Notes under the pieces: model-generated
The model's input: only the letters and a program-made list of their open reading frames with translations
Databases searched by the model: none
What the model was told of the DNA's origin: nothing
Part shown: positions 1 through 39,546 of the stretch, in pieces
Layout: every line of letters begins with the position of its first letter
Position numbering within the stretch: position 1 is the first letter of the stretch
Program-made: the position numbers and the translations under genes
Virus record (IMG/VR): IMGVR_UViG_3300019776_000617
Span: 1 to 45,027 of that record
Source of the DNA: a virus
Reading direction: 5' to 3' (one strand)
Length of the DNA: 45,027 nt

Positions 1-3000
1 AATTGCACGTTGTAGAGTTGTAATGGGTCCGGTGCAAATGGTCGATATATGTCAACATTGTCCATTAGCTCTTTGCCATAAAGAGGAACAGTTACAGTTT
101 GATTGCCTATCTGTTGCGTTCTATTCGGTCTGTATTTCCTCCCTGCTGGCAATAATCGCGTATTTGGTCTTAAATTCGCCAGCCTTAGGCTAGGATCTTT
201 GACCATATTGTAGAAGTCTTCGTATGGATTTAATCCGAGTTTGCGAATCATCCAATTTTCAAAAGACTTTAATGTGCGACCCATCCATTGCATCACGTTC
301 TTTGGCTTGGTGGATTCCAAGTCAATCTTACTGCGCACAAGGTCCATCATCTCCTCAGCGAACCACTCGTCGAACATTGAGTATCTGTAATTGTCCAAGG
401 AGTAGTTGATGGTGTATGTTTTATCTCCAGTTTTTGGATCGACAGTTGGTATTAGATATTGCGCAGCTTTATCTGGGTAAAACTCAGCATAGTCTAAATA
501 CTCCTCCTCCGTCATTTTCATTCTGCCAACAAAAGCGTAATACCATGGATTGTTCCCAACGTATTCGCTTACTTGCTCTCGGTAATCCGCGAGCATCTTG
601 TTATATTCCTTTTGTGGCAAATACCGCGATAAGCTGTGCCAGAACTCATGTGTGTAGGTTTTTGATTGCTCTGTTTCACTTTGTTGATTGAGCTGGCTAA
701 AGCTCATCTTAATCAAGTTTTCTGTGAAGTTGTAAGAGCTATTTACAGGCTTTACCGTCATGGACATTGCAACGTCATCGAGGAAGTAATCGCTGATGCT
801 GTTGACAAATCCGATCACTTCTTTTGAAACCCTTGCTGGAATCCGTCCAGCAGCGGCTTCTCTTGCTATGCGCACCAATAGATTGGCTTTGCCTGTTATG
901 CGTGGTCTAGCCTTTCTTTCTTTGGCAGCAAGTAGCATCTCAGCTCTTTCAAGCGCAAACTTGAGAATATCTGCAAGAAGTGACTTTTTCTCTTCAGGCG
1001 ATGCTTGATCATACTCTGATTGAAGCTGCTCTACAGTAACCTGATCGCCACTTGTGGTTACAGTGTATGTCCTAGGAGGTCTCTTGCCGCTTTGCAAGAT
1101 CGTTTCAGGTCTCGCTGCGCCTTGGAATTGGACGTTAGGATCAGATTCTAATCCATCTCCTCCTCGTCTTCCTCCTCCTCGTATTCCTCCTCGTCCGGAA
1201 GGTATTGAAAATAGTCCGGAACGATCTCCTCCTGTATAAACAGTTCCAAGTCCTCCATCACCGTCTCGACCTCCAAGCCCCCCAGTCCCTCCGCTCTCAG
1301 AAACGAGTATTTGGTCATTGGATGCCCTTGATTCAGCATATACTCCGCGCTCTTGAACAACTGCCTTCCACCATTGCGGGATTCCGACTCCTTCAGCATC
1401 TGCTTTTGCTTCTTCAAGAGATCTTCTTTCGTTATTGCTGTTTTTTGCCGCTGGGCTGAGTTCCCAGATTTGCTCTCTTGCCTGTTTTGCTGTGATTTTT
1501 CCATTGCTGTAATCGTTCCAAATTTTACGTGTTGCTTTTACATTTTCCGAATTCGACTTGAAATTAGCAGGGAAAAGCATCCTTACTGCCTCCCATGTGA
1601 TACTCTGGACCTCGCGAGGAAGCAAGCCGAATTTCTCGGCAGCTCTAATGTAAGCCTCGGCGTTTGCGGCGTAAGTTCCTTTGATCCCTGCTGTTGAATC
1701 GTTCTTTGTATTGCCAGATCCGAAGTTCTGAGAAACTTCGCGTGAAGCACCGGAAAGCGGCAACCATAGCAATGCTGCGATTGCGTGGGTATCCATAGTC
1801 ACGTCACCGTATATCCTGTTGACTCCATCAAGATTTCTGGCTGAAGACGGATCTACGATGTTGTTGTAGAAGCTGCGAACTTTGTGTTGCGTGCCAAGCT
1901 GATCAGATATGATCTTTTGTTGCTCGGCTGGACTGGATTTCATGATCTCGATCGCCTTTATCGTTACCGAGTATCCACCCCATCCAACTGGCAACTTCTT
2001 GTCACCTTTTTTGTTCATGGCAAAATCGCCAAAGCTTCCGTCTGGTCCAACAACAGCATAGTTAGGACTGTGGTAAACCTCTGAATACATACGAATGAAC
2101 CAAGCCTGCTCAACCCCTTCCATTTGACGCAATGACATCTTGCCTTCTGCTTTAGCATTGAATGCTTTTGCCATTGCTATGTTTCTAATGGCTTGCGCCT
2201 TGTCAAAGTTCTCCCAAATGCGTGTGCCATCAGGATTAATTCCAATTGGTCTAGCATTGTTTTCATAGATAAACCCTTCTGGATTAAACTCAGATTCAAG
2301 ATCTGGATCTGTTTTTTCAGTCATCGTTCCATCATCAGCTCTTTCCATTTTTGGCTGAGGCTCGCCAGCACGCATGATGAACCGCTTGGACATTTCTGCT
2401 GTCCATACGAAGTCCTGCTTGTTGACCCAAGTGTCCATCATTCTTTCGGCGAGCGATACGTTCTGGAACCAGTCTTTTTGAGGACTGAATACAGCTAGAA
2501 TCGCTGCGGCTTGCTCTCTGCTTATTCCATATGCATCGGCAAATTTGTTGGCGATGATGTTTGCTCCGTCATACCATAACTTCGCCACGGTTCTGACGTA
2601 TCCGGGCATAAGGTTGATCAACTCTAGTAGATTTGACTCTGTGGCATCAACGTAGGCATTGTAGACAACTTCAGCATCATTTACTGTAAATGCTTTGATG
2701 TTTTTTTCGATCTCGGCGAGCTTGTCATCAGCAATATCTCTTTTCTGCTTCTTTTTAGCTAATGCCTTATCGAGATCCTTTTGTGCCTTCCTTGCTGCAA
2801 CAACAAGTGCGCTCATGCCTTTTGGTGATGACTTGATGGCGTTATCAACGTCTGCCGCTTTTGCTTTCGGAGCTAATTGCTTTTTGATTCCTTTTGCTTT
2901 TGCAGCTTCCAGCATCCTTGCTTGGATTGCTTTTTTGACATTTTCCCTAGCTGCGTTGTTGACCTTGCGAGCATCGTCTACTTCAAATTCAGCATTTCTG

Positions 3001-6000
3001 GCTTCTATCAACAATGATCTAACCTGACGGAACGACCTGTTGCTAATATCGCCTAAGACTGAATACTCGGAGAGCAAAAGTGCATTCTTGCGATACGCCA
3101 GAGGATTGACTTCGCGCAATCTTGTAAGACTGATATTGTGTTCTCCGTCATATCCTTTTCCGGTAGATCTTTTCGCAGTTGGGTTACTTGATCCGACTCG
3201 CTTGCCCGGCTTAACTCTTGCTTTGGTATCTTGCTCAATTGATTCACCATCTTGCAAGTTGCTTTGGAGTTGCACATTGCTACCTGCATTGTAATCAGGA
3301 TGGTTAGGCAGTAGTCTTGTCGTGTAGTTATCTGGATCGTATTCGTTGAGTTCTGCGGCAACATCTACCACTTCTGCGCTATCCAGCTCAAAGTATGTAT
3401 TGTATATGTATCCTTTGCCGTATCCAAATGGCTTACCAAAGCTGATATTTGGAACTCCAAAATTATTGAGCGGAGTTGCTATCCATGTATCAAAATCTGT
3501 ATCGTAATGCAGCCCGAAAGTGTTTTCCTTGCTAGAATACATGAACGAGTATTCATCGCTTAAATATCCAGAGTTTTCATCTGTTAGCTTGGTGAATTTT
3601 CCGGCTTCTGGCTTTACATAACTGTAGTATTCTGGGGTAAGAAGTCTAATCTCCATGTTTTCCTGAGCCTCTGTCAGCTTCATAGACTTTTTGGGCTGGT
3701 GCATTTTTTTAGCAACCATGTCCTTAAACGCCTTAGTATTGCTCTGGAATTGGATTCCGGATTTATCCTTGATGAAGCTGCGCTCAACGTCTTTGACCAG
3801 ATCGACAGTCTCTCTGAAGATGCGCTTCTGCTCTTGATCAGCACCTTTCAGTTTTGCGCTGAAATAGCTGATCAGATCTTTAAGCAGACTTACGATTTTC
3901 TGGTAAGCTTTCGATGTTGGCTTTTTGCCAGTAAGCTCGGTGATATTGCCATACAGCATGTTCTGGATGGAAATGCGTTTGAACTCAGCGGCAATAGCGT
4001 ATTTAGACTCAGCACCATTGTAGACCTTCTTGACGGCTGCAATTTCAGCCGGAGACATCATGTCGTAAAGCTGTTGATGATAGTCAACGTATGCCTGATA
4101 TTTAGCATACGGCTTCGACTCGTTCTCGGTTATGACCGACCAGCTTGCTGCATGAATCATCTCCTCTCGGATGATCGCATCGACTTCCTCGATGCTGTAT
4201 GAACTCATGTCATTGGTGTTGAACTTAACCTGCGCTCCCTGCTGACTGTCAATTTCGAGTTTTGCAGTATAACCTGTTGGAAGAGTTGCAACATCCACTC
4301 CGATGTATCGGAATGCCTTGCGGAACTTGCCATCGAAATATTGCTTGAAGTTGTTCGATGTTCCGAGGCTTTTTGCTGACTGCGATTGGAATTGAACCTG
4401 AGAAGGACTGTCAGATGCGCCATCATACATGACCCATTCCGGCAGTAGACCGACTTTCTGATCAGCATAAATAGTGTCTTCCTGACTAGCGGTCCGGTTG
4501 TGTTCAGCGTGTGGACCAAAGTTCACCCAGCTATTTTGACCCCTTGTTTCTGAGGTCATAGCCCTTCTTGCAAGAGGTGAATACATTGAGCTGTGAGATC
4601 TCCAAGCGTTTTCTTCTCCATCTGCTCGGAATCCAACGCCTTCTTTGATGTGACCAAAGTAATCATGAACTACTCGGAAAACATCGTTCACGAGCATCTT
4701 GTGACCATTGATCACTTCTCCGGTTTCTGCAAGGAGTGGATTGTCTGAGACATCCAGTTCGCTCGAGCCAAATCCGTCATCGGTGCGGAAGAAATACATG
4801 CGGTTGTTTTTGACCACATCCAGAATCGCCTCTCGTGGATTTCCGTAGTAATCCGATGGGTTCATCATCGGCAAGATCTTGATGCCTGTCTTCTTCAGTG
4901 CTTCATACTGCGCCAATGTCTCATCGATCATTGCTTGATACGCAGCTTTGACCTCAGGGTTCTGAGGATCATGTTTCAGCTCATCGTAAGCATCAGCTAC
5001 GCGAGCCGCTCTTTCCTCGTCAACTTTTGCGTATGTCGTTGGAGGGTTATACGGAAGCCCTGCGGACTTCATGTAGTCTTCTGCCGCTTTTCGTGCGGTC
5101 TCAAATGGACCGAATTCGATAAGCTGATCGTTGACTTTAACCTTTGAAGGAAGACCTTTTAACTTCGGCTTTTCAGTCGGAATATATGGGCTGTCTTCGC
5201 TCGGAATCCATCCCTTGCTTCCAGCCATTCCTCTTCCGACTTGAAGTCCTCCTGTTTCGGCGCGAGTGCTAGTATCTCCTGTTGATAAGGAGTTAGCTTG
5301 CGATCCTTGAGCATTACGCTGGAATCGGATTTGGGCTTCGTAAGATCTTGCGGCATCGAGAGCATTCTCGTAGACACTCATGTTGTTGTCAACAATAAAG
5401 TTCTGCACACCGTCAATGCCTTTCAGTGCGTTAGCCCTGTATGCCCATGCCTCCTCCCAAGTTTCCAACGTGGGAACGGAGTTTTGAATGTCTTGATAGT
5501 TGTCGTATGCATTGTTACGCAATTGCTCGCCACGCATACGTGCCATCAGGAGAACGTCTGGAGTCCCAAGTTCATCGGCATTGTAGCCGTCTGGGGCGAA
5601 CTCAGCATTGAAAGCAACTTTGGATACAGGCACAAATCCCATCGTGCGATGGTAAAGGGTTGGCAAGTATCCTCCGGTGTCGTAGCAGTCCAGAGTGCTA
5701 AGGTATGGGTGATGTGTTCCCAATGCCTCGAGGAGCGCACGCATGTCCTCTTTGCTGTCAGGGTGTTTGAATACAGCAAAAAGGTTTCCGTCTCGATCGA
5801 TTGCGACACCTCCACGACCATCGGCGAGCATATACATTTCCGTGTCCAGCATGTCCTCTGGGGACACTGGAGACACTGCTCCGCCTTTTCTGTGAGCGGC
5901 TTTTGCCGCTAATAGTGCCTTGGAATACTCTATTTCTGATTTTCCGGGCTTGCGAATATCGCCTTGTTCCGTGGTATCTGTTGAAGGTCTGTGCCACTTA

Positions 6001-9000
6001 GCGAGCGCAGGGCTAATAGGGAATTCTCCCCTGCGGATTTTTGACTTCGCGTCTTGATCGATTCCTTGCGTGTCCGAAGGGGCTTGTTGGAACCTGATGT
6101 TGTTTGCTTGTTCATTGCGATTACTTTGTAGTGCTGCGTTATTGTTGTCAAGTCTGGCGTTTGTGTTTCTTGGGTATGGTCGTCCAGCGTAGTATTTTCC
6201 TTGATGCTCAAAAGCCACAGCGTTGTTGCTCATTTTTTGAGCTAGTTGCTCTGCTGCTTTTTTATTGCTAAATCCGACTTGAGCGTTTCCTCCCATAGAT
6301 GGAGGAACGATGTATCCAGCGAGAACTTGAGTGTTTTTTATGATCTTTTCCTGCATCTGGTATATCGCTCCGTTTCTGGCTTGCACTGAAGCATCCATGA
6401 CTGGAGCGATTGTGAACAACTGATCAAACAATGCTATTGCATCGCGATCGATATTGTATCCGGGCATTTTTTTGGCTGATGCGTGAACCCTGCCGATCGA
6501 TGCCGCAAGCTGTGCAAACGCTTTGCTGACAGCTGGGTCTGCATCGACAATAAGACCTCCTTGCTTGAGGTATGCTTCCATGCCCTCAGCCATTGCCTCG
6601 TTGTATTCGTAGCTGCCTTCTGCGGCATTAGGGTAGTTCTTGCTGATCCATTTTTTCATGGCAGCAACGCCTGCTTCTCCCAGTGCTACTTCCAAGATTG
6701 GTTTGCCAGTATTGGGATCTTGCAGTGATTGCAGAACGTGAGTGAATTCGTGCATCATTGTCGATGCCGTCGATTGATCATTGAGACCAATGGATGAAGC
6801 AACGATGTTTCCGATCTTGTCCACAAGTGGAACATTGTAGCCGGAGAATTTTGATTCCTGATCTAATTGGATCCTGTATTGCTTATTTACCTCATAGAGC
6901 AGGTCATCAATCTTTGAGTCTACGTTTTTCAGTTCAGTTCGTGCCTGAGTCCTTGCTGTTGCTTGCTCTGCGTTTAATGATTGTTGACCAGCGGATTTAG
7001 CCTCTATCTCAATCTGTCCGATCTGCTCTGTTATTTTGACTTTTTGAGCAAGAAGATCATTGAGCTGAACCACGATTTCTTTTGATGCCTCGTTTCCAAA
7101 TGCATTCAAGAAATTGATTTTGCCATTCATTGCTCGAGCCGCAGCCAAAGCTGTAGCATCACCATTGGCGACAAGCTCTGTAAATGCTGTAGCAGCCTTG
7201 TTTGCCAGCAGTGATTTTTTTGCTGCTTCAGGTATTGAATTTCTACTCAATAACTCTTCGCCTGCGCGATTCAGTTTTGCAATTGTCTCAACGATTAAGC
7301 TCTTGTTTGCGACATTGACTCCTTGCGTGTCTGCTTGATCAAGAGAAGTGGCTAGCGCATTAGCTATAGCGTTTTCTTTAGCTCCAATGAAGCTGGTGCG
7401 AACCATTGCATACATTGAATCAGAGTTGATTCCAAGACGGTTTGATACAACAGAAACCAAGCGGTCAATAGCAGTGATTTCCGCATCAACGTCCTCCCTT
7501 GTTTTTTTGCCTGCAATAACAGCTCTTGCTGATGCTTGTCGAGCTTCGTATGCAAAGCGTTTTTTGTATTTTGTTGCGTTGATCTGAAGTGCCTCTTGCA
7601 CCGTCTTTACCGTAACAAATTCATTTTCGATCTGACCTTTGCTGTTTTTGACTTGCGTGGGCAGGATAACCTTGAACCCACCCCTCATCGGGATGATGTT
7701 TGCTGGCAGTGTTGCTTTCTCGGTGGTATCAATGCGGGTCTCTGGGAGGACAATGCCAAGCTTGAGCAAGGCTTCCGCCGATGTGGCTTCCTTGAGTAAT
7801 GCCAAGGCGTATTTCTCGACTTGTTGCAACTCTTCTTGAGCTGTTCTGTCAGCTCCCTGCATCAAAGTCCTGATGTTGTTTACAAATTTGCGCAGGAATT
7901 TAAGTGCTGACGATATCAGCTTGCGGTCGCCACCCCTGAGTGCTTTAGCTAGAGATGATGATAGCACCTTGTCTTTCAACAGGTTTGCCACCATATACTG
8001 TGCAACTTGGTTATCGGTGATGTCTGTTCCAAGCTTTTTCTTTGCCTGCTTCTTTACGAGAAGGCGCAAGTCCGGAGGAAGGCTTCTGTATAGGACTCCT
8101 GCCTCTTGCTCTGTCAGAGACTTCTGTGAAGCTCTTTCTGTCAACGAGTCAATGACTGCTTTGCGTTGCTTTTTATGGCTTAGACCCGGACGCAATACGA
8201 GACCACCATTGGCATCGATCGCGTAGTCTCCGCTCATAGTTGCAACCTGATCAGGAGTAGCCTCCTGAACACTGGTAAACATGGACCCGACAGCTTGCTC
8301 TATTCCTGATACGTTTACGTTCGGACTGACATTGCCAGCTCCTTGGAACTGAGTGTTAGTGGCTGGTGCTTGCGCTGATGCCTCTGTTGACTGCAATTGT
8401 TGAGTCAGATCCGCTGGCAAGGTTTCGCCTGCTTGCAATTGACTCATGATCAACTGCTGCGCTTCTTGTGCGTTCTTCGCCTCTACAGCGATTGGTCGCA
8501 TTGCTCCGGTAGCGGTTCTCACGTTCGTTCTGAACGTAATATTCCCTCCGGCGGGAGCTGTTCCAGCTTGTGCTGTTGCGGCTTGCGCTTTTGGCATTGC
8601 GATGAATCCTGTCCCTGCTGGGTTTGGGATGATGTCGTAATTGGCTGGGTTTAGCTTTGCTCGGGTAAGTGCTGCCTTTGCGCCTTTTTCAGTGGCAAAT
8701 CCTTCTCCTCCTTTACGAGTGAAAGGCTGAGGAGCAGTCGCATTAGCCGGAGCCTGTGTTGCTACTGGAGCCTGTGTCGTTGCGGCAGTAGCTTGAGTGG
8801 TCGTGGCTACCGGAGCTTGTGTCGTCGTGGCTGGGGCTTGTGCAGTAGTTCCTGCTGCTGCCGCTGCTGCCTCTTGCTGCTTGATCTGCTCCATCCTGCC
8901 AGCTTCGCTCAATCCGATCAGCTTGCTTGCTGCGGATGGGCTTAGGCGAGCCACCATACTGATCGCGCTATCGCTGATGATGATGTTGCCGTTTGCGTCT

Positions 9001-12000
9001 TGTGTGTATGCTGCTGATCCATCCAAGAGGTTTGCTTTGAATGCTGTTTGCTCAGACCGAGTCAAGTCAGCGAGTTGGTAGCCATTGGCTATTTTGATGA
9101 TAGCACGAGCTTGATTGATGTCTTGAATCTGTTGCTTTGCATTTTGTATCCCAGCTTTATCTCCGGCTACCGTTGCTTGTTCTAAATTTGTCTGCGCTGC
9201 GTTAAAACGCTTGTTGAGGTCGTTATTTGTGTCGATTGCAACTTGCAACCTATCGATTGCTACATTGCTATCTACGGCTCCGCGACCGGGCTGGTAATTC
9301 ACCAACTGCAATCCAGATTCAACCTCGGCTTGTTGGTAGTTTGTGCCAGTAGACTCTCTGAGAGCGTTCATTACCGACTCAACATTGGTAGCGTCTACGC
9401 TTTTGATTCCTGTTTGGCTTGCGCTAGCTACAGAGGCAAATGCTCCGCCTAATATTAATCCAGCCTTACCAGCTTCCAAGCCAGCGGCTAATGCGTCTTG
9501 AATGCTTGCGTTTTCATTTAGTGTTACGGTTTGCAGGAATTCGTCAGAAAACTCTTCACCGTATTCTCCTAACGCTGGTTTTGCTACTGAACCAATAGCT
9601 TTCCATGTCCTGCTTAGGATTTCTTTAGCCGTGTATTTGCCTCCAAACGATCTGACAAGATCTCTGATCGTGTAATTGGCGATGGGCTTTCCGGAAAGAC
9701 TTCTTAGGGCAGCACTTTCTATTGTTGCGCCACTAGCACCAAAGGCAAGCATTATACCTGTCGTGATCACTCCAGCCACCATTGCTTTCCCTCTAACGTC
9801 ATCACTGGCTACCAGCTCATTTTTTTCTTCTTCTGTCAGATCGCGACCAAGCTCTTTCTTTTTGGCTTGGTAGGCTTCTTGGTAATATTGATGCCAAGAC
9901 AATCCAGCGGATTGCATGCCTCCTCCTACTGCCGATCCCAAAAGTCCGCCAGCTCGTGTTGCAACAGTTGCGTATTTGGCGGCAGTTTTAGCTACTGCTG
10001 CTCCGCCATACTTTACAGCCTGTTGTAAGACGCTGCTTGTAGCTCCAGCCGCCCCGACTCCCGGAGCCAGTGTTAAAGCTAGTGATGGTGCTTCTTCTAA
10101 AATGGTATCTGCGACAGGAGTAAGATATGGTATCTTTCCACCCATTGCGTTGGCACGCATGCTCTTGTTTGCATCTTGATACTTTTGCAAATTTTCCGCT
10201 ACGCTTAATGCTCCGGGTATTTCTGCTAATGTAGCAATGCCTGCTATGGCTCCAGCAGCTTTGGCTCCTCCGTAATTGAGTGCTTGCTGTGGTCTATTAA
10301 GGGTGTCTATAACGTTTACAAGACCGCTTCTATTTCCGGGTCCGTAATGCTTTTGATATTGCTCAAATTGATCAGGCAAAGAAGTTTGGTCAGTCTTTCC
10401 TTGGTAATACTGCTTTTGCCATACCGAAAACGATGGAATATTTCTTGCCTCTTGAGCCAATGGACCACCAGACATCAAATATAACTCATTATCAGCTATC
10501 CTTTGTAATGCATATCCCTCCCTCATTTTGTTCATGCCCTCATCGGACAGGAGGTATTGCTTCATGTATTGAGGTGCGGTAGATGATTCTACAGCACCAC
10601 GATAGATATCTCTGTCTACAATGTTAAGGCTTGGATTGATGAAGACGTTTCCGCCCCATAGTGTTCTGGACTTTTCTCCGTCCTCCCACTCTTTGTTTTC
10701 CAGCATGATTTCATTGAGAGCTGTTTGTATCTGCTCATCAGTATATCTAAGCTGTAACGCACTGATCGTAGCATTAGATTGATGGGTCTTGCCGGAAATC
10801 GTGCGAGCCAATCTTTTTATTTCCGTATCTTTAGTCTCTTCTAGATTAGAAGCTGCATTAACGATCGGATTCCATAAATTTTGCAGAACACTCTCCGTGT
10901 CTGGAAGTGGCTTCATATTAGATGCCGATCTTCCAGTTGGCATCAAGAATTTGCTCGCGCCAGCATTATCACTTGATTTCTCATACTTGTATCCTTTTTT
11001 TGCAAGCTCTTGAAAGTATTCTTTCGTGTGAGCATTTTCAAGAACACTGGCAATTTCTGCGTTTACTTTTTGCTGCTTCTCTACTTCTTGTTGATACAAG
11101 TTTTGCGCGGCTTTTTCATTGTCGTAAACCTGCTTTGCTCTTTGTTCTATCTGCTCTTTTGTTGCCTCTGGAGGGAGTGGGTTTCTGAATATATCATCAT
11201 TTGCTTTTAGAATGGCTGCGGCTTCCTTGCTCACCATCGAGATGTCAGCCATGTTCTGGGTATTAGCATCAAGCATTGCTTTGATGCCTTCTTCTCTTCT
11301 TTGTTCGGCTAATTTATTTTCTTCATCAATCCAAGTATTATGAGCTGTTATCGCGTTTCCAACGTATGGTGCTAGGATGTTAATCTCCCTGCCTTCATCA
11401 GCGATGCGCTTGATATTTTGGTCGTATTCAAACCTGTTCTGAAGGAACTTCTTGTTAGCCTCTGCAATTTTTTCTCCGTATAATCTTTTTTGCTCTTCGA
11501 TTCCGGATGGCGACAATCCAAGACCAAGTCTTGCTTGATATTGCTTGTTAAGTTCTGCAACTTCTTGTTGATACAGGTCTTGTTGCGCTTTAGAGTTTTC
11601 GTTAATTAATTTCTGGGCGTTATTCAGCCGAGTGACTCGCGTATTGTATGACTCGATGTATGCTTTGCGTTCATCAGGGTCAGTCGGAACGACCGTGTTA
11701 ATATCTTCCGGCTTGTTAGCCTTGATGTCTTCTTGCTTGCGCTTTTCTTCCTCGAGAAGATTGTATTGATTGCGGTATTCATCGTCTCTTGCGATTGCTG
11801 CGCTGTAAGAGTCAGCTTCCTTGCGAAGAGCATCCATGGTCTCACGGACATCGTCGTATTTTGCTCTGCCGTCCCTGATGTCTTGCTCATACATAGACAA
11901 TCCTTGACGCTTTTGCTCAAGTTTTTTTGCCTGCTCCTCTCTGTCACTATCCTTGAGTTTCAAGTCGTCTAACGACTTCATCTCCCGTTCCAGATCCCTC

Positions 12001-12356
12001 ATCCGAAATTCTGCCGCTTCCTGCTTTTGCTTTTGCTGAAGCTCGACTTGCTTGTCGCGTTCAAGACGAGACCTTTGCTCATCTGTCAAAGCACTCAAGA
12101 GATTCCCCTGAGAATCAAGATACGAGTATGCATCAGCATCCTCAGCTTTCATCTGATCCATCAGCGCGGAATTACTCTGACGCTGCTGCTGATCTTGGTA
12201 TGTATTTGCAGCGGTCAAGGCAGATCTCTGGTCTCTTTGATCCTCCTCAAAAATACTGCGAACCATGCGGCGTTGTCTTTCGATTCCGCTGGAAATGGAT
12301 TCGGTTAATTGTTCTCTGCTACTGGCTGATGCGTCTTGAAATGCTGGTTCTGACAT
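1..12356 (-). CDS. Giant multi-domain polyvalent phage protein (partial, C-terminus beyond window)
   Basis: One frame stays open from ATG 12356 to the left edge, at least 4118 codons; I checked the frame at seven points. Residues 99-150 are a charged coiled coil. Glycine/alanine-rich hydrophobic stretches lie near 695-714, 756-776, 801-819, 856-875 and 960-978, as in ejected internal virion proteins. An Ala/Pro/Thr/Gln linker follows near 1165-1207. Then come a zincin with HEFTH at 1869-1873 and a following EAMAEG glutamate near 1920; a GNAT-like module about 2160-2260; a module with VVHDYFGH (about 2562-2569), GEENAW and TETRGQNSW; a degenerate zincin with EEMIH at 2731-2735; a module with LAVFSPQKDW near 3290; a Gly-rich linker near 3700; and a second full zincin, HEFWH at 3903-3907. 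Such mosaics match the 'polyvalent proteins' of phages and conjugative elements, thought to enter the host with the DNA. Virion location and counter-defence role are inferred. Confidence 0.9.
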   Translation of the reverse strand, partial: MSEPAFQDASASSREQLTESISSGIERQRRMVRSIFEEDQRDQRSALTAANTYQDQQQRQSNSALMDQMKAEDADAYSYLDSQGNLLSALTDEQRSRLERDKQVELQQKQKQEAAEFRMRDLEREMKSLDDLKLKDSDREEQAKKLEQKRQGLSMYEQDIRDGRAKYDDVRETMDALRKEADSYSAAIARDDEYRNQYNLLEEEKRKQEDIKANKPEDINTVVPTDPDERKAYIESYNTRVTRLNNAQKLINENSKAQQDLYQQEVAELNKQYQARLGLGLSPSGIEEQKRLYGEKIAEANKKFLQNRFEYDQNIKRIADEGREINILAPYVGNAITAHNTWIDEENKLAEQRREEGIKAMLDANTQNMADISMVSKEAAAILKANDDIFRNPLPPEATKEQIEQRAKQVYDNEKAAQNLYQQEVEKQQKVNAEIASVLENAHTKEYFQELAKKGYKYEKSSDNAGASKFLMPTGRSASNMKPLPDTESVLQNLWNPIVNAASNLEETKDTEIKRLARTISGKTHQSNATISALQLRYTDEQIQTALNEIMLENKEWEDGEKSRTLWGGNVFINPSLNIVDRDIYRGAVESSTAPQYMKQYLLSDEGMNKMREGYALQRIADNELYLMSGGPLAQEARNIPSFSVWQKQYYQGKTDQTSLPDQFEQYQKHYGPGNRSGLVNVIDTLNRPQQALNYGGAKAAGAIAGIATLAEIPGALSVAENLQKYQDANKSMRANAMGGKIPYLTPVADTILEEAPSLALTLAPGVGAAGATSSVLQQAVKYGGAAVAKTAAKYATVATRAGGLLGSAVGGGMQSAGLSWHQYYQEAYQAKKKELGRDLTEEEKNELVASDDVRGKAMVAGVITTGIMLAFGASGATIESAALRSLSGKPIANYTIRDLVRSFGGKYTAKEILSRTWKAIGSVAKPALGEYGEEFSDEFLQTVTLNENASIQDALAAGLEAGKAGLILGGAFASVASASQTGIKSVDATNVESVMNALRESTGTNYQQAEVESGLQLVNYQPGRGAVDSNVAIDRLQVAIDTNNDLNKRFNAAQTNLEQATVAGDKAGIQNAKQQIQDINQARAIIKIANGYQLADLTRSEQTAFKANLLDGSAAYTQDANGNIIISDSAISMVARLSPSAASKLIGLSEAGRMEQIKQQEAAAAAAGTTAQAPATTTQAPVATTTQATAATTQAPVATQAPANATAPQPFTRKGGEGFATEKGAKAALTRAKLNPANYDIIPNPAGTGFIAMPKAQAATAQAGTAPAGGNITFRTNVRTATGAMRPIAVEAKNAQEAQQLIMSQLQAGETLPADLTQQLQSTEASAQAPATNTQFQGAGNVSPNVNVSGIEQAVGSMFTSVQEATPDQVATMSGDYAIDANGGLVLRPGLSHKKQRKAVIDSLTERASQKSLTEQEAGVLYRSLPPDLRLLVKKQAKKKLGTDITDNQVAQYMVANLLKDKVLSSSLAKALRGGDRKLISSALKFLRKFVNNIRTLMQGADRTAQEELQQVEKYALALLKEATSAEALLKLGIVLPETRIDTTEKATLPANIIPMRGGFKVILPTQVKNSKGQIENEFVTVKTVQEALQINATKYKKRFAYEARQASARAVIAGKKTREDVDAEITAIDRLVSVVSNRLGINSDSMYAMVRTSFIGAKENAIANALATSLDQADTQGVNVANKSLIVETIAKLNRAGEELLSRNSIPEAAKKSLLANKAATAFTELVANGDATALAAARAMNGKINFLNAFGNEASKEIVVQLNDLLAQKVKITEQIGQIEIEAKSAGQQSLNAEQATARTQARTELKNVDSKIDDLLYEVNKQYRIQLDQESKFSGYNVPLVDKIGNIVASSIGLNDQSTASTMMHEFTHVLQSLQDPNTGKPILEVALGEAGVAAMKKWISKNYPNAAEGSYEYNEAMAEGMEAYLKQGGLIVDADPAVSKAFAQLAASIGRVHASAKKMPGYNIDRDAIALFDQLFTIAPVMDASVQARNGAIYQMQEKIIKNTQVLAGYIVPPSMGGNAQVGFSNKKAAEQLAQKMSNNAVAFEHQGKYYAGRPYPRNTNARLDNNNAALQSNRNEQANNIRFQQAPSDTQGIDQDAKSKIRRGEFPISPALAKWHRPSTDTTEQGDIRKPGKSEIEYSKALLAAKAAHRKGGAVSPVSPEDMLDTEMYMLADGRGGVAIDRDGNLFAVFKHPDSKEDMRALLEALGTHHPYLSTLDCYDTGGYLPTLYHRTMGFVPVSKVAFNAEFAPDGYNADELGTPDVLLMARMRGEQLRNNAYDNYQDIQNSVPTLETWEEAWAYRANALKGIDGVQNFIVDNNMSVYENALDAARSYEAQIRFQRNAQGSQANSLSTGDTSTRAETGGLQVGRGMAGSKGWIPSEDSPYIPTEKPKLKGLPSKVKVNDQLIEFGPFETARKAAEDYMKSAGLPYNPPTTYAKVDEERAARVADAYDELKHDPQNPEVKAAYQAMIDETLAQYEALKKTGIKILPMMNPSDYYGNPREAILDVVKNNRMYFFRTDDGFGSSELDVSDNPLLAETGEVINGHKMLVNDVFRVVHDYFGHIKEGVGFRADGEENAWRSHSSMYSPLARRAMTSETRGQNSWVNFGPHAEHNRTASQEDTIYADQKVGLLPEWVMYDGASDSPSQVQFQSQSAKSLGTSNNFKQYFDGKFRKAFRYIGVDVATLPTGYTAKLEIDSQQGAQVKFNTNDMSSYSIEEVDAIIREEMIHAASWSVITENESKPYAKYQAYVDYHQQLYDMMSPAEIAAVKKVYNGAESKYAIAAEFKRISIQNMLYGNITELTGKKPTSKAYQKIVSLLKDLISYFSAKLKGADQEQKRIFRETVDLVKDVERSFIKDKSGIQFQSNTKAFKDMVAKKMHQPKKSMKLTEAQENMEIRLLTPEYYSYVKPEAGKFTKLTDENSGYLSDEYSFMYSSKENTFGLHYDTDFDTWIATPLNNFGVPNISFGKPFGYGKGYIYNTYFELDSAEVVDVAAELNEYDPDNYTTRLLPNHPDYNAGSNVQLQSNLQDGESIEQDTKARVKPGKRVGSSNPTAKRSTGKGYDGEHNISLTRLREVNPLAYRKNALLLSEYSVLGDISNRSFRQVRSLLIEARNAEFEVDDARKVNNAARENVKKAIQARMLEAAKAKGIKKQLAPKAKAADVDNAIKSSPKGMSALVVAARKAQKDLDKALAKKKQKRDIADDKLAEIEKNIKAFTVNDAEVVYNAYVDATESNLLELINLMPGYVRTVAKLWYDGANIIANKFADAYGISREQAAAILAVFSPQKDWFQNVSLAERMMDTWVNKQDFVWTAEMSKRFIMRAGEPQPKMERADDGTMTEKTDPDLESEFNPEGFIYENNARPIGINPDGTRIWENFDKAQAIRNIAMAKAFNAKAEGKMSLRQMEGVEQAWFIRMYSEVYHSPNYAVVGPDGSFGDFAMNKKGDKKLPVGWGGYSVTIKAIEIMKSSPAEQQKIISDQLGTQHKVRSFYNNIVDPSSARNLDGVNRIYGDVTMDTHAIAALLWLPLSGASREVSQNFGSGNTKNDSTAGIKGTYAANAEAYIRAAEKFGLLPREVQSITWEAVRMLFPANFKSNSENVKATRKIWNDYSNGKITAKQAREQIWELSPAAKNSNNERRSLEEAKADAEGVGIPQWWKAVVQERGVYAESRASNDQILVSESGGTGGLGGRDGDGGLGTVYTGGDRSGLFSIPSGRGGIRGGGRRGGDGLESDPNVQFQGAARPETILQSGKRPPRTYTVTTSGDQVTVEQLQSEYDQASPEEKKSLLADILKFALERAEMLLAAKERKARPRITGKANLLVRIAREAAAGRIPARVSKEVIGFVNSISDYFLDDVAMSMTVKPVNSSYNFTENLIKMSFSQLNQQSETEQSKTYTHEFWHSLSRYLPQKEYNKMLADYREQVSEYVGNNPWYYAFVGRMKMTEEEYLDYAEFYPDKAAQYLIPTVDPKTGDKTYTINYSLDNYRYSMFDEWFAEEMMDLVRSKIDLESTKPKNVMQWMGRTLKSFENWMIRKLGLNPYEDFYNMVKDPSLRLANLRPNTRLLPAGRKYRPNRTQQIGNQTVTVPLYGKELMDNVDIYRPFAPDPLQLYNVQ

Positions 12357-12379: not shown

Positions 12380-13666
12380 TTACTTAGATTTTTTTAATGC
12401 TTTTTTTACAGGTAATTCACCTCGGCGCGACATCCCTGCTCGTAAGGCTTTTTGCAGTTCTCTATCTGTGTTATACATTTGCACTGGAGGAGCTGCTTGT
12501 CGCTTAGTATATCCACGTTCTTCCGCTGCTACACGACCCATTGTGCGTGCATTATTGTTAATTTCAGCAACTTGTCCCGGCTGCATTCCTTTTGTTCCTG
12601 CGAATTTATTTTCGTATTCTTGAGCTGCCATTTCTGCTTTTGCTCTAGACGATGACCAATAGCCGCCAGTCATTGTAGCTGGATTCTCTCTTTCTTTTTT
12701 CCTTTCCGCTTCTACAGTTTTTACATTTTTTTCATATTGTCTGTATGCTTTGTCTGCCTCTCCTCCTGTTTGCACAATTCTGGAGCTGCGCATGTCAGGA
12801 TTTTTTTTGAGTTCGTCTGCGGTTGCTTTTTTTGTTTCAGTTTGCAACGCGACTTTTTCACGCAGCGATTCCAAGTTTCCTCCAGCACCTACGTAGCCAG
12901 CCTGATAACCTTTGTCTTTCTGAGCCATTTGCTGGAACGTCTTTGATTTTACGATGTTCTCATCGGTCTTGCGTGCAGCGGACTGATTTAGAGCAGTCAT
13001 CTCTGGTCCTTTTCTCCAAATTTTTCCTGTATTTTCGTTTGATCCTGCTACTGCCCCTTTGTAGCCGACAAGAGTGTATCCTTTTTTACTCATGTCTTCA
13101 TCGGTGACAATTCTATCTGGCTGCTTTACAGGAGCTTTTGCAGGCTTTGGCTTAACAATAACAGGTTTTATATCAGTCGCAGGAGTTTCTGTTTTTGCGG
13201 CTTCAGGTGCTGGTGTAGATGCGGCTACTGGCGTTGGCTTTGGCGATTTTGGCTCATAAGCAGTGACCCTGTCTCCGACAACTTTCAATTGCGATCCTGA
13301 CGAGCTTGCGTTTGTTGCAACGCTAGGCTTTTCAGATAAAAAAGATGATGATTTGTTTACGAAAGGAGATGGATTTGTTGTAACACCAGTCCCGTATGTT
13401 TCCTTGTCAGTTCTTTCTTTTGGCAGATAGCTTTTACTGTTGTCCACTCCAAGACGCGACGAGATGCCGCCAGATTCAGCAGGCTTAGTAACTGGTATTT
13501 GTGGCTTTGGTTGCACTGCAACAGATTCAATCTTGTTGTCCTTGACTTTAAGTTGATACTTATCCGTGCTTGGAACTAAAGCTACGTTGTTTGATTCAAC
13601 GACTCCTTTTGTTAATTCTCCCTTGCCTTGCAATGCGGTTGGTTTTTTCTTGTCTTGTTCAGCCAT
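12380..13666 (-). CDS. Low-complexity probable virion-associated protein, 428 aa
   Basis: I do not recognise a family. The first half is rich in Lys, Pro, Ser, Thr and Val with many VKPKP-like and PAPE-like stretches and should be disordered. The C-terminal third is charged and helical and ends in a basic tail (KKALKKSK). There is no signal peptide or membrane segment. The gene sits 23 bases upstream of the giant minus-strand gene and 32 bases downstream of another low-complexity gene, in the same direction, so the three are probably cotranscribed and may be packaged together; that is inference. The ATG at 13666 has no Shine-Dalgarno, only an A/T-rich leader. Confidence 0.75.
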   Translation of the reverse strand: MAEQDKKKPTALQGKGELTKGVVESNNVALVPSTDKYQLKVKDNKIESVAVQPKPQIPVTKPAESGGISSRLGVDNSKSYLPKERTDKETYGTGVTTNPSPFVNKSSSFLSEKPSVATNASSSGSQLKVVGDRVTAYEPKSPKPTPVAASTPAPEAAKTETPATDIKPVIVKPKPAKAPVKQPDRIVTDEDMSKKGYTLVGYKGAVAGSNENTGKIWRKGPEMTALNQSAARKTDENIVKSKTFQQMAQKDKGYQAGYVGAGGNLESLREKVALQTETKKATADELKKNPDMRSSRIVQTGGEADKAYRQYEKNVKTVEAERKKERENPATMTGGYWSSSRAKAEMAAQEYENKFAGTKGMQPGQVAEINNNARTMGRVAAEERGYTKRQAAPPVQMYNTDRELQKALRAGMSRRGELPVKKALKKSK

Positions 13667-13698: not shown

Positions 13699-14640
13699 TT
13701 AAGCCATCCGCTTTGCTAAGTTTTGTTGTCTGAGTTTTTCTGTATTGCCAGTCTGGGATGCGCCAGAACCACTTCTATTACCAAACGATGGCTGGCTCAT
13801 GCTATTCGCTGCGAGTCCCATCGGATTCATTACTGGTGCTTGCGAAACCTTTCCTTCTTCCATTGGAGAAGATGTTGCCGATGGTTGCGGTGTCTTTTTT
13901 GCTTCGGATGGATTCAGAACTGGTGCTACTGGAACGGTTGGGGTAGTAGCTGCTGCTGCTCCAGCCGCCGCAGGGGATGCGCTGGTAGTTGTAGTCGCAG
14001 GCGAGGTAGTAGACCCGGTAGTAGGTGTAGCAGACCCGGTAGCTGGAGTAGTAGTAGGAGCTTTAGCTGTATCTGTCGCTCCTGTTCCTGTTGCAGGAGC
14101 TGATGGTCCTACAATCGGAGTTCCCTTTGCTGCTTTATCTGCTGCCTCTTTCGCCTCTTGCTCTTTTAACTTTCTTGCGTCCTCTGCTGTTTGAGCATCT
14201 CGTTGTTCTTTTTCAATTTTGAGACGCTCCCTCATTGCAATCTTTTCTCTTTCCAGTGCTTTTTGGAACGATTGCTCTTCTGCTGCTGCGGCAGCGGCGC
14301 GATCAGCGGAATTGACAGGTCGATACCTGTCACGCTCTTGATCGCTCATGCGAGAGAATGTATTGTTGCCAATTATATCACCTTGTCCCTCGGTCATTCC
14401 TTTGTAAGGACCACTGATGTATCGCATCTCGCCTTTACGGTCAGACTTCAGTGTGCCTCTTGCTCCTCGGTGCAACGTCATGAACCTCTCGTATCCATCG
14501 TTTGATCCTGATCCACCAAATGGATTTTGCACTGGTGATCCTCCTGCTGGATTGGTGTCGCGACTATCTGCGTTATCCAAGTTATCCGGGTTGCGCCTTC
14601 TCGCAGGCATGTAGCTATCGAGTGTCTCTGGTTCAGCCAT
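13699..14640 (-). CDS. Low-complexity coiled-coil and Ala/Thr/Pro-rich protein, 313 aa
   Basis: The start at 14640 (MAEPETLDSY) is preferred over an in-frame upstream ATG at 14733, because that extension would cross the divergent intergenic region and overlap the plus-strand gene at 14714. Residues about 105-170 form a highly charged Ala/Glu/Lys/Arg coiled coil. It is followed by a long Ala/Thr/Pro/Ser linker (TTTPATGSATPTT-like) and a Ser/Asn/Gly-rich end. No catalytic motif is seen. It is the first gene of the leftward block and probably encodes a structural or ejected protein accompanying the giant protein; this comes from context only. Confidence 0.75.
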   Translation of the reverse strand: MAEPETLDSYMPARRRNPDNLDNADSRDTNPAGGSPVQNPFGGSGSNDGYERFMTLHRGARGTLKSDRKGEMRYISGPYKGMTEGQGDIIGNNTFSRMSDQERDRYRPVNSADRAAAAAAEEQSFQKALEREKIAMRERLKIEKEQRDAQTAEDARKLKEQEAKEAADKAAKGTPIVGPSAPATGTGATDTAKAPTTTPATGSATPTTGSTTSPATTTTSASPAAAGAAAATTPTVPVAPVLNPSEAKKTPQPSATSSPMEEGKVSQAPVMNPMGLAANSMSQPSFGNRSGSGASQTGNTEKLRQQNLAKRMA

Positions 14641-20505: not shown

Positions 20506-20556
20506 ATGTTTATCATCATCATCATCATCATCATTGCTCTCAATACTAACAAATGA
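20506..20556 (+). CDS. Poly-isoleucine micro-ORF / leader peptide (16 aa)
   Basis: ATG 20506 opens MFIIIIIIIIALNTNK, in which seven ATC codons and one ATT code for eight consecutive isoleucines; the stop TGA overlaps the ATG of the AAA+ gene in an ATGA configuration (20553-20556). Ribosomes finishing the micro-ORF are placed to restart on the AAA+ gene, so coupling is plausible. Runs of one codon resemble amino-acid attenuation leaders, but a simple ATC microsatellite would look the same. No hairpin-terminator pair was found. The reading frame is seen; expression is inferred. Confidence 0.35.
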   Translation: MFIIIIIIIIALNTNK

Positions 20557-22148
20557 CCACCATTAATACCATGCAAGACAATACCACCACCACCACCAAT
20601 GTCACGGCTAACATCCGTGACGCCCGAAACACCCTAGGCAACCTCGTCAAAGGTGCGCCAGCCGGACACCCTCTGGCAGCTCTGAGCTGCGCCACCATCA
20701 AACAGGGTGGCGATGGCTGGAACGCAGGTCGCATCTACCCACTAATCCGCGCCATGGGTGCAGCTCTGGCACTGTCGGACGACACCGTGATCATCCGGAC
20801 TCTGGATGGCATGATCGCTCGAGATGGCGCGGCAGCAACGCTGAACCTCCTCTCCTCCGTGGGCTGGTCTCAGCTCCTGACTCCGGTGATGCCTACCATC
20901 ACCATCGATGAGCCAGAGGCTGCTCCTGCTCCTGCGGCTGCTCCTGCGGCTGCTCCTGTAGCTGCTCCCAAAGGCAGCACGTCCGCCATGAAGGCGATGC
21001 TGGAAATGCTGACCAGACAGGTCGCCGAGGAGGTCGAGCAGACCGAGCAAGTGGCAGCGGCTACCGCCTCCGAGGTGGCTGCGGTCCGCGCCGAGCTGGT
21101 GACCCTGACCAAATCCATCGGGCTGTCCATCGGGCAGCTCACTGCCAAGGTGGATGCAGCTGCTGCCCCAGCCTCCGCGCCCATCAGCGTGGCTGCTCTG
21201 CGTGGCGCAGTGGCGGACGTGCTGCGTGACCTAGCACCAGCCCCAGAGGTGCTGGAGGCAGCTACCGATGGCGCATGCCAGTTGCCAGCCATACCCGAGG
21301 CTGATGCCACCTACGTGCCGCCTGTGTGGCATGAGGACGTCATGCATTTCATTTCCGCCGACAAGCACGGTGTCATCGGCGGGTCGTCCGGTGCTGGCAA
21401 GACCTTCCCGCTCAAACAAATCTGCGCCGAGCTGGGTCGCCCATGCAAGGTGTTAGCCTGTAATGAGGCACTCGATGCCGAGACGCTCGTCGCCATGCCG
21501 AGCATCTCTGGTGGCAACAGTCACTACATCGACGGACCATTGACGCATGCCATGCGTCACGGATATGTCCTAATAATGGACGAGGGTGACGAGCTGAGAA
21601 GAGGGGAGGCATTGGTCCTCAACGATGCGCTGGAATCGCGCACCATCACCATCCCGCAGACAGGAGAGGTGGTCCGTGCTAAAGCCGGATTTGCCGTCTG
21701 GTTCACATCCAACTCTCTGGGTGACGAGCTGGGCATCTACAATCGCGAGGGGTTCGATGAGAGTCTCCGCCAGCGTTTGCTGAAGGTGCTAGCCAAGCCT
21801 CTCAGCGTGGCTGACGAGGTCGCCATCCTGACAAAAATTATCTCTCCCTCCGGAGGTAAGCTCACCAAATCAGACGCAGAGCTGCTCGTAAAGTGGGCGC
21901 ACGCTGCGCGTCCGTTCCATTTCGGCATCAATGGTAGCGATGCTGTGCTGGAATCGCTGCCATCCACTCGCGTGCTGGTCACGGCTGTGGAGCATTGGCT
22001 GGGTTTCAACCGTGCCACAGGCGCGGAGTTTCCGGCTCTGAGCCAGCGTAAATCTGACGTGCGCCATGCCCTCTGGTATGCCTACGCCAGCAGCCTTAAG
22101 ACCGAGGAGGTCGAGGCTCTCAAAAACATCGGTCTATGGATTTGGTGA
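20553..22148 (+). CDS. MoxR/CobS-like AAA+ ATPase, 531 aa
   Basis: AAA+ ATPases of the MoxR/CobS type work with VWA-domain partners as ATP-driven chelatases or remodelling factors. Walker A is GGSSGAGKT at 276-284, Walker B is LIMDEGDE with Asp at 343, the sensor-1-like motif is WFTSNSLGDE near 383-392, and an arginine-finger candidate lies in ESLRQRLLK near 405. The first 250 residues are Ala/Pro-rich and helical, with a PAAAPAAAP linker and a coiled coil (MLTRQVAEEVEQTEQ), probably for partner binding. The partner is the next gene. The start follows the poly-Ile micro-ORF and has no Shine-Dalgarno. The substrate is unknown; cobalt chelation is not implied, as no cobalamin genes are seen. 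Confidence 0.85.
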   Translation: MTTINTMQDNTTTTTNVTANIRDARNTLGNLVKGAPAGHPLAALSCATIKQGGDGWNAGRIYPLIRAMGAALALSDDTVIIRTLDGMIARDGAAATLNLLSSVGWSQLLTPVMPTITIDEPEAAPAPAAAPAAAPVAAPKGSTSAMKAMLEMLTRQVAEEVEQTEQVAAATASEVAAVRAELVTLTKSIGLSIGQLTAKVDAAAAPASAPISVAALRGAVADVLRDLAPAPEVLEAATDGACQLPAIPEADATYVPPVWHEDVMHFISADKHGVIGGSSGAGKTFPLKQICAELGRPCKVLACNEALDAETLVAMPSISGGNSHYIDGPLTHAMRHGYVLIMDEGDELRRGEALVLNDALESRTITIPQTGEVVRAKAGFAVWFTSNSLGDELGIYNREGFDESLRQRLLKVLAKPLSVADEVAILTKIISPSGGKLTKSDAELLVKWAHAARPFHFGINGSDAVLESLPSTRVLVTAVEHWLGFNRATGAEFPALSQRKSDVRHALWYAYASSLKTEEVEALKNIGLWIW

Positions 22149-22186
22149 TCTCCTCTAACATCTAACATCTAACATAACATCCGACA

Positions 22187-24576: not shown

Positions 24577-24837
24577 ATGGCACGATTGCAGAACAACCAA
24601 TTGCAACGTGCAAACGACGAGCAGCTAAAGGGCAGAGGTGCGTGGCTGGTTGGCGTGATGATAGCAGCCGGACTGGGCTATGCACTGCCACTGCACATCG
24701 CAATCAAATGCATCATCTGGATCATCCTCGCTGGGCATGTCACCGGAGTCGCACGGCTATTGGTCCGAGCATGGCGCATGCATTTGCTGGGTCGGAAAAT
24801 CGAAAAGCTCCAAACCGAAATCAACAATCAAAAATGA
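24484..24837 (+). CDS. Membrane protein with two transmembrane segments, 117 aa
   Basis: Residues about 54-72 (WLVGVMIAAGLGYALPLHI) and 74-95 (KCIIWIILAGHVTGVARLL) are hydrophobic and should span the membrane, leaving a basic cytoplasmic end (HLLGRKIEKLQTEINNQK). The N-terminal 35 residues contain a duplication, MRPLLKEVQEKLN and then MRPYLLKEAQEKLN, so translation may start at 24484 or 24535. It lies between ATGA overlaps with both neighbours, so it is coupled to the SNF2 helicase gene. The role is unknown; it is too early in the genome order to be an obvious holin. Confidence 0.65.
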   Translation: MRPLLKEVQEKLNYHNYMRPYLLKEAQEKLNMARLQNNQLQRANDEQLKGRGAWLVGVMIAAGLGYALPLHIAIKCIIWIILAGHVTGVARLLVRAWRMHLLGRKIEKLQTEINNQK

Positions 24838-37692: not shown

Positions 37693-39546
37693 TCAGTAAA
37701 ATCCTTTCCTTCCAAGCATGCCGGATGACAAGCTGCCACTACGTAACCTTTGTTCGTATTTTTGCAAGTCCCTAGGCATCGGAATATCTTCCAATCGGTT
37801 ACGGTATCGAGTTGCTTGATTTATCACGCAGAGACCAATTCCTGCGCTCAAGACATCGTCATCGTGACTGCCTCTTAATGCTTCAGCCCTGCCACGATCG
37901 TTTATGCAAAACGTTTCGCACTCGGAGATCAGGTGAGGGCAGTTGAGGTGGACTCCTCCACCATCCTCTCCGTATGTCCGGATTGCTCTTGCAAGAGTTT
38001 CCTCGATTTGCAATCGGGTCGAACTGCTGGTGTGCCACCCGAACGCTTTTGACCGCTTCTGGTTCACATGGTTGAAGATCTCCCTCTGATACAGCGGGAT
38101 ATCCCCCTTTGCCCTGATCAACTCGACGAATCCTCGGTCACAGTTGATCTCTGATACGACTAAGCACTTGCCATAGTATAGGGCAAGCCTCCATGTCCAC
38201 TCAGCCAATATGTCAATGTCCCAGCGGCACTCAGGAATGATCCTAGCTGCTACCGCCGGAGGGAGCCAGCCACGGTCACGGTCGAAGTATCCTTTCCGCC
38301 AAACAAAAATAGCGTGCGCGTCTGGGTCTTTGCCACCGACCTGCGACTCTCCGGTCATAAGGTCTGCGCTGATAAGGTAGTGGTATCCATCTCTCGGCTT
38401 CTCAAACACATGATAAATAGCCTCCTCAACACTGGACTGCATAAATCCGACAAGCTTGCCGCTCGAGGACAGCTCTAGTGTTCCATACATAGGTTGCAAC
38501 GTGCTTGCATGCTTGCGTTGCCAGTCCAGACCATCCCGGCTGAATCTCGTCCGGGCTGATGCTCGGAACGCATGCTGTGGTGTTGTTGGGAATTCTCGGT
38601 CGAACTTGGTCTCGTCTCCATCGCACTCAGATTGCAAGATCTTGCGTCTCCAGCTTATATGACCCAATGTGACCGTGTGCATTCTGCCGCTGATTCCGTA
38701 GCACTTGTAGTTGGACATAAGCTCCCGCTCGGTCGGCGATAGAGAGTTCCTGATGTCGTTGGACTGTTGATCAGTGAGATTATCGCACGAGTCAGAGAAG
38801 GCATACCATGGCGCGAACACCCTGATCCAGTGACCGTTCCATTCACCCTTCTTGAGTGTCCTCACATGCTCCCAGTCGTCAGCACCGTTCCATCGGTCGT
38901 AGAATACACCGCTCGGACCCTGAGCCGTTGACTCAAGGACTGCCACGGTATCCGGCAATGTTGGCATACACGCTAAAACACCAGTAAGAATGTCTGAGCT
39001 GTTTCGCGCCGGAGTGTCTTTCCATCGACCGATCTCGGTTGCAAGAATGAAGTGATACGTTCCGGATCGACCAGCTTCTGAGTCTTGTGCGGTCTCCTTT
39101 TCGAGAGAGGATCCATTGGCAAAGTATCCACGCTCGTTAGTGATGCGAGACTTCTCATGACCCCAGTTCATCTTGTCATAGTCTGCATACCTGCGGGTGA
39201 TTTTCCACAGGTTATCGGTCTGGCTGAACTCGCCACCGATGATCAAGCCGTTAGCCTGTCTACGTTGCAACATGTGATATAGGCATGCAGTGGTCACGGT
39301 TGATGCCCCCTTCTGACGTGGCTTTAGGATGACGATCCGACATGGGTATCGATTTTCTCGACACCATATGATTGCAGAGATCACCTGCTCTTGCAGGTAA
39401 TTTAGCTCAGGCGTTTCGATCTTGCCGCTCTTGTGCAAGATTTTGCCGAATTGCTCCATCCACGCTCCTTCGTCATGGATGCATGCTGAACGTATGACTT
39501 CGTCAGCTTCTTCGTCGGTCAATTGTATTGCAATATCGTCTTGCAT
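37693..39546 (-). CDS. terL: Terminase large subunit, 617 aa
   Basis: This protein is the ATP-driven DNA packaging motor and nuclease. The ATPase shows PRQKGAST at 76-83 (Walker A variant of terminases) and FILATE at about 167-171 (Walker B). The RNase H-like nuclease has Asp395 (LISADLMTG), Glu466 (VVSEINCDRG) and Asp563-Asp564 (GSHDDDVLSAG), all in the expected order. The length is typical. The ATG at 39546 has no Shine-Dalgarno and follows a large inverted repeat. It starts in the late leftward block, followed by a small HNH-like protein. Confidence 0.92.
   Translation of the reverse strand: MQDDIAIQLTDEEADEVIRSACIHDEGAWMEQFGKILHKSGKIETPELNYLQEQVISAIIWCRENRYPCRIVILKPRQKGASTVTTACLYHMLQRRQANGLIIGGEFSQTDNLWKITRRYADYDKMNWGHEKSRITNERGYFANGSSLEKETAQDSEAGRSGTYHFILATEIGRWKDTPARNSSDILTGVLACMPTLPDTVAVLESTAQGPSGVFYDRWNGADDWEHVRTLKKGEWNGHWIRVFAPWYAFSDSCDNLTDQQSNDIRNSLSPTERELMSNYKCYGISGRMHTVTLGHISWRRKILQSECDGDETKFDREFPTTPQHAFRASARTRFSRDGLDWQRKHASTLQPMYGTLELSSSGKLVGFMQSSVEEAIYHVFEKPRDGYHYLISADLMTGESQVGGKDPDAHAIFVWRKGYFDRDRGWLPPAVAARIIPECRWDIDILAEWTWRLALYYGKCLVVSEINCDRGFVELIRAKGDIPLYQREIFNHVNQKRSKAFGWHTSSSTRLQIEETLARAIRTYGEDGGGVHLNCPHLISECETFCINDRGRAEALRGSHDDDVLSAGIGLCVINQATRYRNRLEDIPMPRDLQKYEQRLRSGSLSSGMLGRKGFY

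Follow-up and report, generated by a model that had tools for sequence, protein, structure and literature searches.

What is encoded by a reading frame that fills more than a quarter of a phage contig and runs off its end without meeting a stop codon? The window analyzed here, a stretch of 45,027 bases from a fragmentary marine-phage virus record, carries on its minus strand a frame that starts with an ATG at 12356, continues through 4,118 codons without a stop and is open at the left edge. It occupies 27% of the window, so that the original prediction, a single uninterrupted frame of at least 4118 residues covering more than a quarter of this DNA, was accurate in both respects. Relatives of the encoded protein (subsequently designated W) were reached solely through the terminase large subunit (TerL) encoded in the window. 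Three IMG/VR records, whose TerL is 78% identical to that of the window, contain homologous stop-free frames: G005:26114-43816 with 5,900 aa, G011:5987-23101 with 5,704 aa, and G003 with at least 5,384 aa (open). The frame is therefore not a product of chance. As the relatives reach 5,704-5,900 aa, W probably comprises ~6,000 aa in full, of which the N-terminal ~70% would be present in the window. Extrapolation from L050, the closest relative of module M8 of W, which extends ~2,520 residues past this module, yields ~6,100 aa, albeit the modules beyond may differ. The N-terminal 1,000 residues of W retrieved no relatives among phage records, and scanning viral contigs directly with them yielded none either.

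Polyvalent proteins, described in 2017 by Iyer et al., are very long chains of many domains that are encoded by terminase-portal phages. In the available part of that work (PMC5512222) the zincin appears as the hub and commonest domain of the class, and packaging, injection and zincin-mediated release of the domains are already proposed. W shares length and multidomain build with these proteins and has HExxH motifs of zincin type, and its relatives carry the ART and kinase modules that are covered there (PMC5512222, available part). TerL is encoded in the window, and portal and head genes lie beside the gene for the giant protein of G005 (G5; its counterpart from G011 is G11), which places that gene in the virion gene cluster. 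Activities of unrelated kind are combined in one polypeptide: W comprises nine modules, among them two HExxH-containing stretches and a DUF7178 domain scoring above cut-off, while G5 yields Pfam matches above cut-off to Kinase-PolyVal (40.8 bits, cut-off 27) and ART-PolyVal (37.1 bits, cut-off 31.2). By its architecture W is a member of this known class, in support of the earlier assignment to the polyvalent proteins and of the effector and zincin-like modules suggested for it. G005 spans 64.9 kb and is probably complete at ~65 kb, because its ends carry a repeat matching at 98/99 bases. Its giant gene makes up 27% of the genome and is located directly upstream of the portal gene with a 4-base overlap, followed by a scaffold-like gene and the gene for the major head protein. 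In a Rhodobacteraceae phage, genes for a tail protein and an “internal virion protein” stand in one run with that of a giant protein that has a homologous module. Judged from class and position in the virion cluster, W would most likely be packaged and enter the cell along with the DNA.

Table 1. Features of the window; residues are numbered on W.
Feature	Position	Strand	Basis
Giant polyvalent protein W, residues 1-4118, C-terminus missing	3..12356	minus	ATG start; homologous relatives of 5,704-5,900 aa
M1, charged coiled-coil-like N-terminal part, residues 1-640	10437..12356	minus	homologous to N-termini of G5/G11; composition
M2, Gly/Ala-rich conserved part, residues 641-1170	8847..10436	minus	31-34% identical to G5/G11; candidate ejection/membrane part
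J1, TQFQ, residues 1335-1338	8343..8354	minus	junction peptide
M3, zincin-like module, HEFTH at residue 1869	6099..8339	minus	motif kept in G5/G11
J2, IRFQ, residues 2087-2090	6087..6098	minus	junction peptide
M4, exchangeable module, residues 2091-2342	5331..6086	minus	L050 homologue flanked by AASL peptides
J3, IRFQ, residues 2343-2346	5319..5330	minus	junction peptide
M5, phrog_3170 module, residues 2347-2653	4398..5318	minus	HDYFGH...GEENAW...ETRGQNSW motifs
J4, VQFQ, residues 2654-2657	4386..4397	minus	junction peptide
M6	3756..4385	minus	homologues in L090/L101; weak sub-cut-off SprT-like match
J5, IQFQ, residues 2868-2871	3744..3755	minus	junction peptide
M7, orphan module, residues 2872-3027	3276..3743	minus	no homologue in fetched loci, no Pfam match
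J6, VQLQ, residues 3028-3031	3264..3275	minus	L050 homology begins right after; L050 has AASL there
M8, DUF7178 module, residues 3032-3741	1134..3263	minus	PF23802, 3.7e-20; predicted 8-oxoguanine DNA glycosylase-like fold
J7, VQFQ, residues 3742-3745	1122..1133	minus	junction peptide
M9, second zincin-like module, HEFWH at residue 3903	3..1121	minus	ends at record edge
428-aa gene	12380..13666	minus	co-oriented, just upstream of giant gene; no family match
313-aa gene	13699..14640	minus	co-oriented, upstream of giant gene; no family match
Terminase large subunit, podophage type	37693..39546	minus	served to find relatives

How is such a chain organized? W aligns to G5 and G11 over residues 19-1160, 1275-2058 and 3242-3625, while its residues 2059-3241 are without counterpart in either protein and the C-terminal halves of G5 and G11 hold other modules, Kinase-PolyVal and ART-PolyVal among them in the case of G5. 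The N-terminal coiled coil and the glycine-rich hydrophobic segments that had been taken as signs of delivery into the cell fared unequally. A coiled coil is plausible in view of the composition of residues 1-450 (36% D/E/K/R, 4% P+G), while the hydrophobic segments find modest support: one segment of 22 residues in M2 (858-879) passes a Kyte-Doolittle value of 1.5, and residues 641-1160 around it are conserved between W and both G5 and G11. Counted over the fetched sequences, window included, M4 occurs in 9 frames, M5 in 36, M6 in 3 and M8 in 91, and M7 was found there in no frame but the window's own. In other phages, M5 and M8 also exist on their own, encoded by separate ORFs of smaller size. 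A joint alignment of M4 and M5 was left out (the M4 homologues were misaligned). M4 and one module of G5 resemble GNAT proteins by eye only and lack a Pfam match, and this assignment was dropped.

The most informative feature of W, which the original prediction lacks, is a short peptide of the form [VIT][QR][FL]Q that recurs between the modules. With its seven copies, W is partitioned into eight stretches and the first stretch consists of two parts, in agreement with the earlier count of at least seven modules. Block-shuffled versions of W contained 0.4 copies on average and 4 at most (2000 shuffles), and the motif is absent from all other ORFs of the window. G5 likewise has 6 copies of its junction motif, every one in the giant ORF. 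PSLQ is the most enriched pattern across the 5,900 residues of G5 (four copies vs 0.04 expected), and together with INLQ and LSLQ it parts DUF7178, kinase, ART, a fourth module, an ATPase-like/zincin part and the C-terminal part. In G11 the corresponding forms are SLLFQ, SPTFQ, PPLMQ, DILLQ, PPTFQ and PPTMQ; both G5 and G11 keep a peptide of hydrophobic-Gln type at or near six aligned positions. Further giant proteins have forms of their own (RYSP/IRYS, LFAK, FALDP, LFGG, LFQD, AASL/NNAASL), and almost every version includes a bulky residue (F, L, Y or M). E. coli phage PTXU04 gp25 and Vibrio phage 1.232.O were set aside as laboratory models because a convincing set was not found in them, and many giant proteins are without a clear repeated motif. 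Two further frames were observed: L167 encodes, from position 5012, a polyvalent protein with six copies of (F)xxxQPRDxxGR, which is also placed after the ART end, and a giant frame with ART-PolyVal, open on its left side, runs from base 2 over at least 6,832 aa of an 89-kb contig (L165).

As these peptides had first been spotted by reading the sequences, statistical tests were applied afterwards, with non-redundancy of the proteins set by shared 8-mers rather than by phylogeny. The ART-PolyVal module ends with PLSQRFN, and the 4-mer right after this end recurs at least 2 times elsewhere in its own protein for 21/71 ends, compared to a mean of 4.2 and a maximum of 11 under the null (500). The proteins from which trimers were taken at the ART ends contain 74 recurrences of these trimers, as opposed to a mean of 27 and a maximum of 47 when permuted between proteins (2000). 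In an anchor-free test, 22/92 giant proteins had a 4-mer repeated at spaced positions beyond the 99% null vs 0.9 expected, some of these passes being due to modules with paralogues (YHGT, SQRF) and not to junctions; among other long ORFs, which are shorter, 3/97 pass. Finally, homologous alignments cross the motif sites in 12% of cases vs 42% at random positions (lowest random draw 22%; 96 motif sites, 26 proteins), a null that consists of random positions and not of linkers, which are less conserved anyway. The two ART-end tests and the anchor-free test are the cleaner ones, because several motifs of the crossing test were chosen after inspection. What is new here is a short, recurrent and phage-specific peptide between modules, sited where homology starts or stops. 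No cleavage or junction motif is described for polyvalent proteins in the available part of Iyer et al. (PMC5512222), whereas here many giant proteins each have their own recurrent peptide, and an incomplete search of other literature found none either.

The junction peptide is conserved as protein and not as DNA. Copies within one gene differ in synonymous codons: in the AASL copies Ser is encoded by TCG, AGC, TCA and TCT, and the LFAK copies employ five different Leu codons. L050 and L146 are 88-92% identical around one site and diverge immediately past NNAASL. M8 is common to L050 and W (56% identity), and homology begins immediately after AASL in L050 and VQLQ in W, so the same joint carries the motif of its current host protein. 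These observations bear on the idea that module shuffling left the repeats behind as marks of recombination at the DNA level. Breakpoints do sit at the motif, but the synonymous differences among copies in one gene and the occurrence of different peptides at the same joint in different phages make this origin very improbable.

Zincins come into question as the enzymes that might act at these sites. HExxH occurs in 70/102 giant proteins, with 90 motifs vs 1 in shuffled sequences, and W has two, at residues 1869 and 3903. In M3, HEFxHVLQ and a downstream Glu are invariant in W, G5 and G11; the module has no Pfam peptidase match, and its AlphaFold model from a four-sequence alignment (pLDDT 50) was too poor for use. 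A bulky residue such as F, L or Y would suit the P1' pocket preference of zincins. A short repeated peptide between the modules, with a form particular to each phage, suggests that the chain is made in one piece and cut afterwards. We consider as best explanation, at evenly balanced confidence, that W is a polyprotein cleaved at its junction peptides, probably by a built-in zincin. According to this model, one chain of ~6,000 aa would be made from the virion gene cluster, its N-terminal part serving packaging and ejection. Interchangeable modules would follow, each bounded by the phage-specific peptide, [VIT][QR]-[FL]-Q in the case of W. These peptides would be processing sites, most likely for the zincin of the same chain, and cutting at the joints would allow the modules to act as separate proteins in bacterial takeover. 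The zincin-release proposal of Iyer et al. would call for sites of this kind between the domains, and the junction peptides would fill that gap. Besides the giant proteins that lack a clear repeated motif and the poor model of M3, further observations count against cleavage. HExxH is present in 13/20 proteins with a recurrent motif and in 26/36 without, i.e. there is no correlation, and recurrent-motif proteins lacking HExxH in the part read include L050 (open-ended) and L088. A simple zincin-cleavage model is weakened as motif presence does not track visible HExxH. Moreover, the N4 relative is packaged uncleaved according to the available part of PMC5512222.

Readings without cleavage also come into consideration. 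The peptides could be docking motifs, by which a virion protein (inner core, portal or chaperone) keeps the flexible giant chain inside the capsid or guides it through the tail. Protein-level conservation, placement between modules and phage-specific form fit docking equally well, a zincin is not required, which agrees with the missing correlation to HExxH, and for the N4 virion RNA polymerase, passage as an unfolded and undivided chain is assumed (PMC12633501). However, docking has no need for a motif at almost every joint or exactly where homology starts, and it leaves aside that the zincin is the commonest domain of the class in the available part of PMC5512222; we regard it as unlikely. 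More doubtful still is that W acts as a single intact multifunctional protein in the manner of the N4 enzyme, with the peptides as ordinary linkers devoid of a recognition role. The N4 polymerase and plasmid TraC1 are indeed transferred full length (PMC5512222, available part), but the copy numbers of the peptides far exceed expectation from composition and shuffles, their sequence is protein-specific, and sequence searches found no similarity of W to the N4 polymerase or any solved chain.

If cleavage at the junctions is the correct reading, the exchange of modules may follow a rule: the edges of a moved module would adopt the peptide that marks the joints of the protein it has entered. We therefore suggest, tentatively and with confidence short of even, that polyvalent proteins are true polyproteins with an own cleavage code in each phage, and that moved modules end up with the recipient code. 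Protease specificity and all joints would consequently co-evolve.

Known systems share single traits with this arrangement. The N4 virion RNA polymerase (gp50, ~3,500 aa) is a giant ejected podophage protein with HExxH and a membrane-associated N-terminus (PMC12633501), much as proposed for W, but W differs by its multiple junction peptides. No RNA polymerase similarity was detected by phmmer against PDB chains, neither for W, whose C-terminus is missing, nor for residues 3901-5900 of G5. In the systems of T4 gp21 and SPN3US gp245, the protease is a separate morphogenetic enzyme. Ejection proteins processed by such prohead proteases resemble W, as far as the available accounts go, in that packaged proteins contain a short phage-specific recognition motif. 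In contrast, the junction motif is missing from the other proteins of the window and of G5, including its scaffold-like, portal and capsid proteins, and a function as general virion-protease site was rejected. Phage P1 DdrB is a virion protein with a zincin that is processed before packaging; it is much smaller, gives one processed product, and no phage-specific repeated junction is described for it in the available part of PMC5512222. Polyproteins of eukaryotic RNA viruses, an analogy drawn in that same part of PMC5512222, likewise hold their modules in one chain with a short recognition site per joint, but employ other proteases and modules, so that the analogy is an operational one.

A model of M8 derived from 47 sequences reached a pLDDT of 91.4, and its best nine VIA rows are all 8-oxoG glycosylases (Z 5.1-7.8, values below 8 calling for care), the next unrelated row having a Z of 3.9. 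The model aligns with AGOG over 202 residues (Z 7.8, rmsd 5.0) and with OGG1 over 162 (Z 6.9, rmsd 3.5); Foldseek against PDB gave a best E of 0.95, which is not significant alone. The Lys of HKVR and the Asp of (M/I)DTHA are invariant in the 47 DUF7178 sequences. By motif and spacing rather than superposition, we take them to resemble the catalytic pair of HhH-GPD enzymes, OGG1 Lys249/Asp268. Pfam HhH-GPD (PF00730) had no match in the window genome, whereas all 14 controls matched. The predicted structure suggests that M8 likely folds like an 8-oxoguanine DNA glycosylase. In L064, a DUF7178 match at 10001-11101 has a stop codon within the module, and that copy is broken. In the G005 giant protein (L043), one motif-bounded stretch at ~3908-4778 combines GHKL/HATPase-like sequences (DNGIGMS, GGGFGIAK) with a second HExxH; database matches to a GHKL ATPase stayed below threshold, and this assignment was not retained. 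Neither a DNA glycosylase module nor a GHKL-like ATPase is named in the available part of PMC5512222.

Release of polyvalent domains by zincins has been a proposal without named sites since 2017, and the junction peptides provide concrete residues for it. With their help, borders between modules could be placed in a large number of giant phage proteins that lack annotation. They also delimit early-infection effectors as separate expressible units, and the giant proteins supply candidate proteases with different specificities. Elsewhere in the window, a region on the plus strand (20553-24085) contains a gene for a MoxR/CobS-like AAA+ ATPase (phrog_249) and then one for a protein of 632 aa that includes long acidic GDEAGDE/ESGD repeats and is VWA/CobT-like by eye. 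Positions 24708-26975 (plus strand) strongly match a SNF2-like DNA helicase (phrog_62, 2.6e-105), and positions 42308-44137 (minus strand) encode a tail spike-like protein of 609 aa with an apparent SGNH/esterase signature, WLQGESD, recognized by eye.
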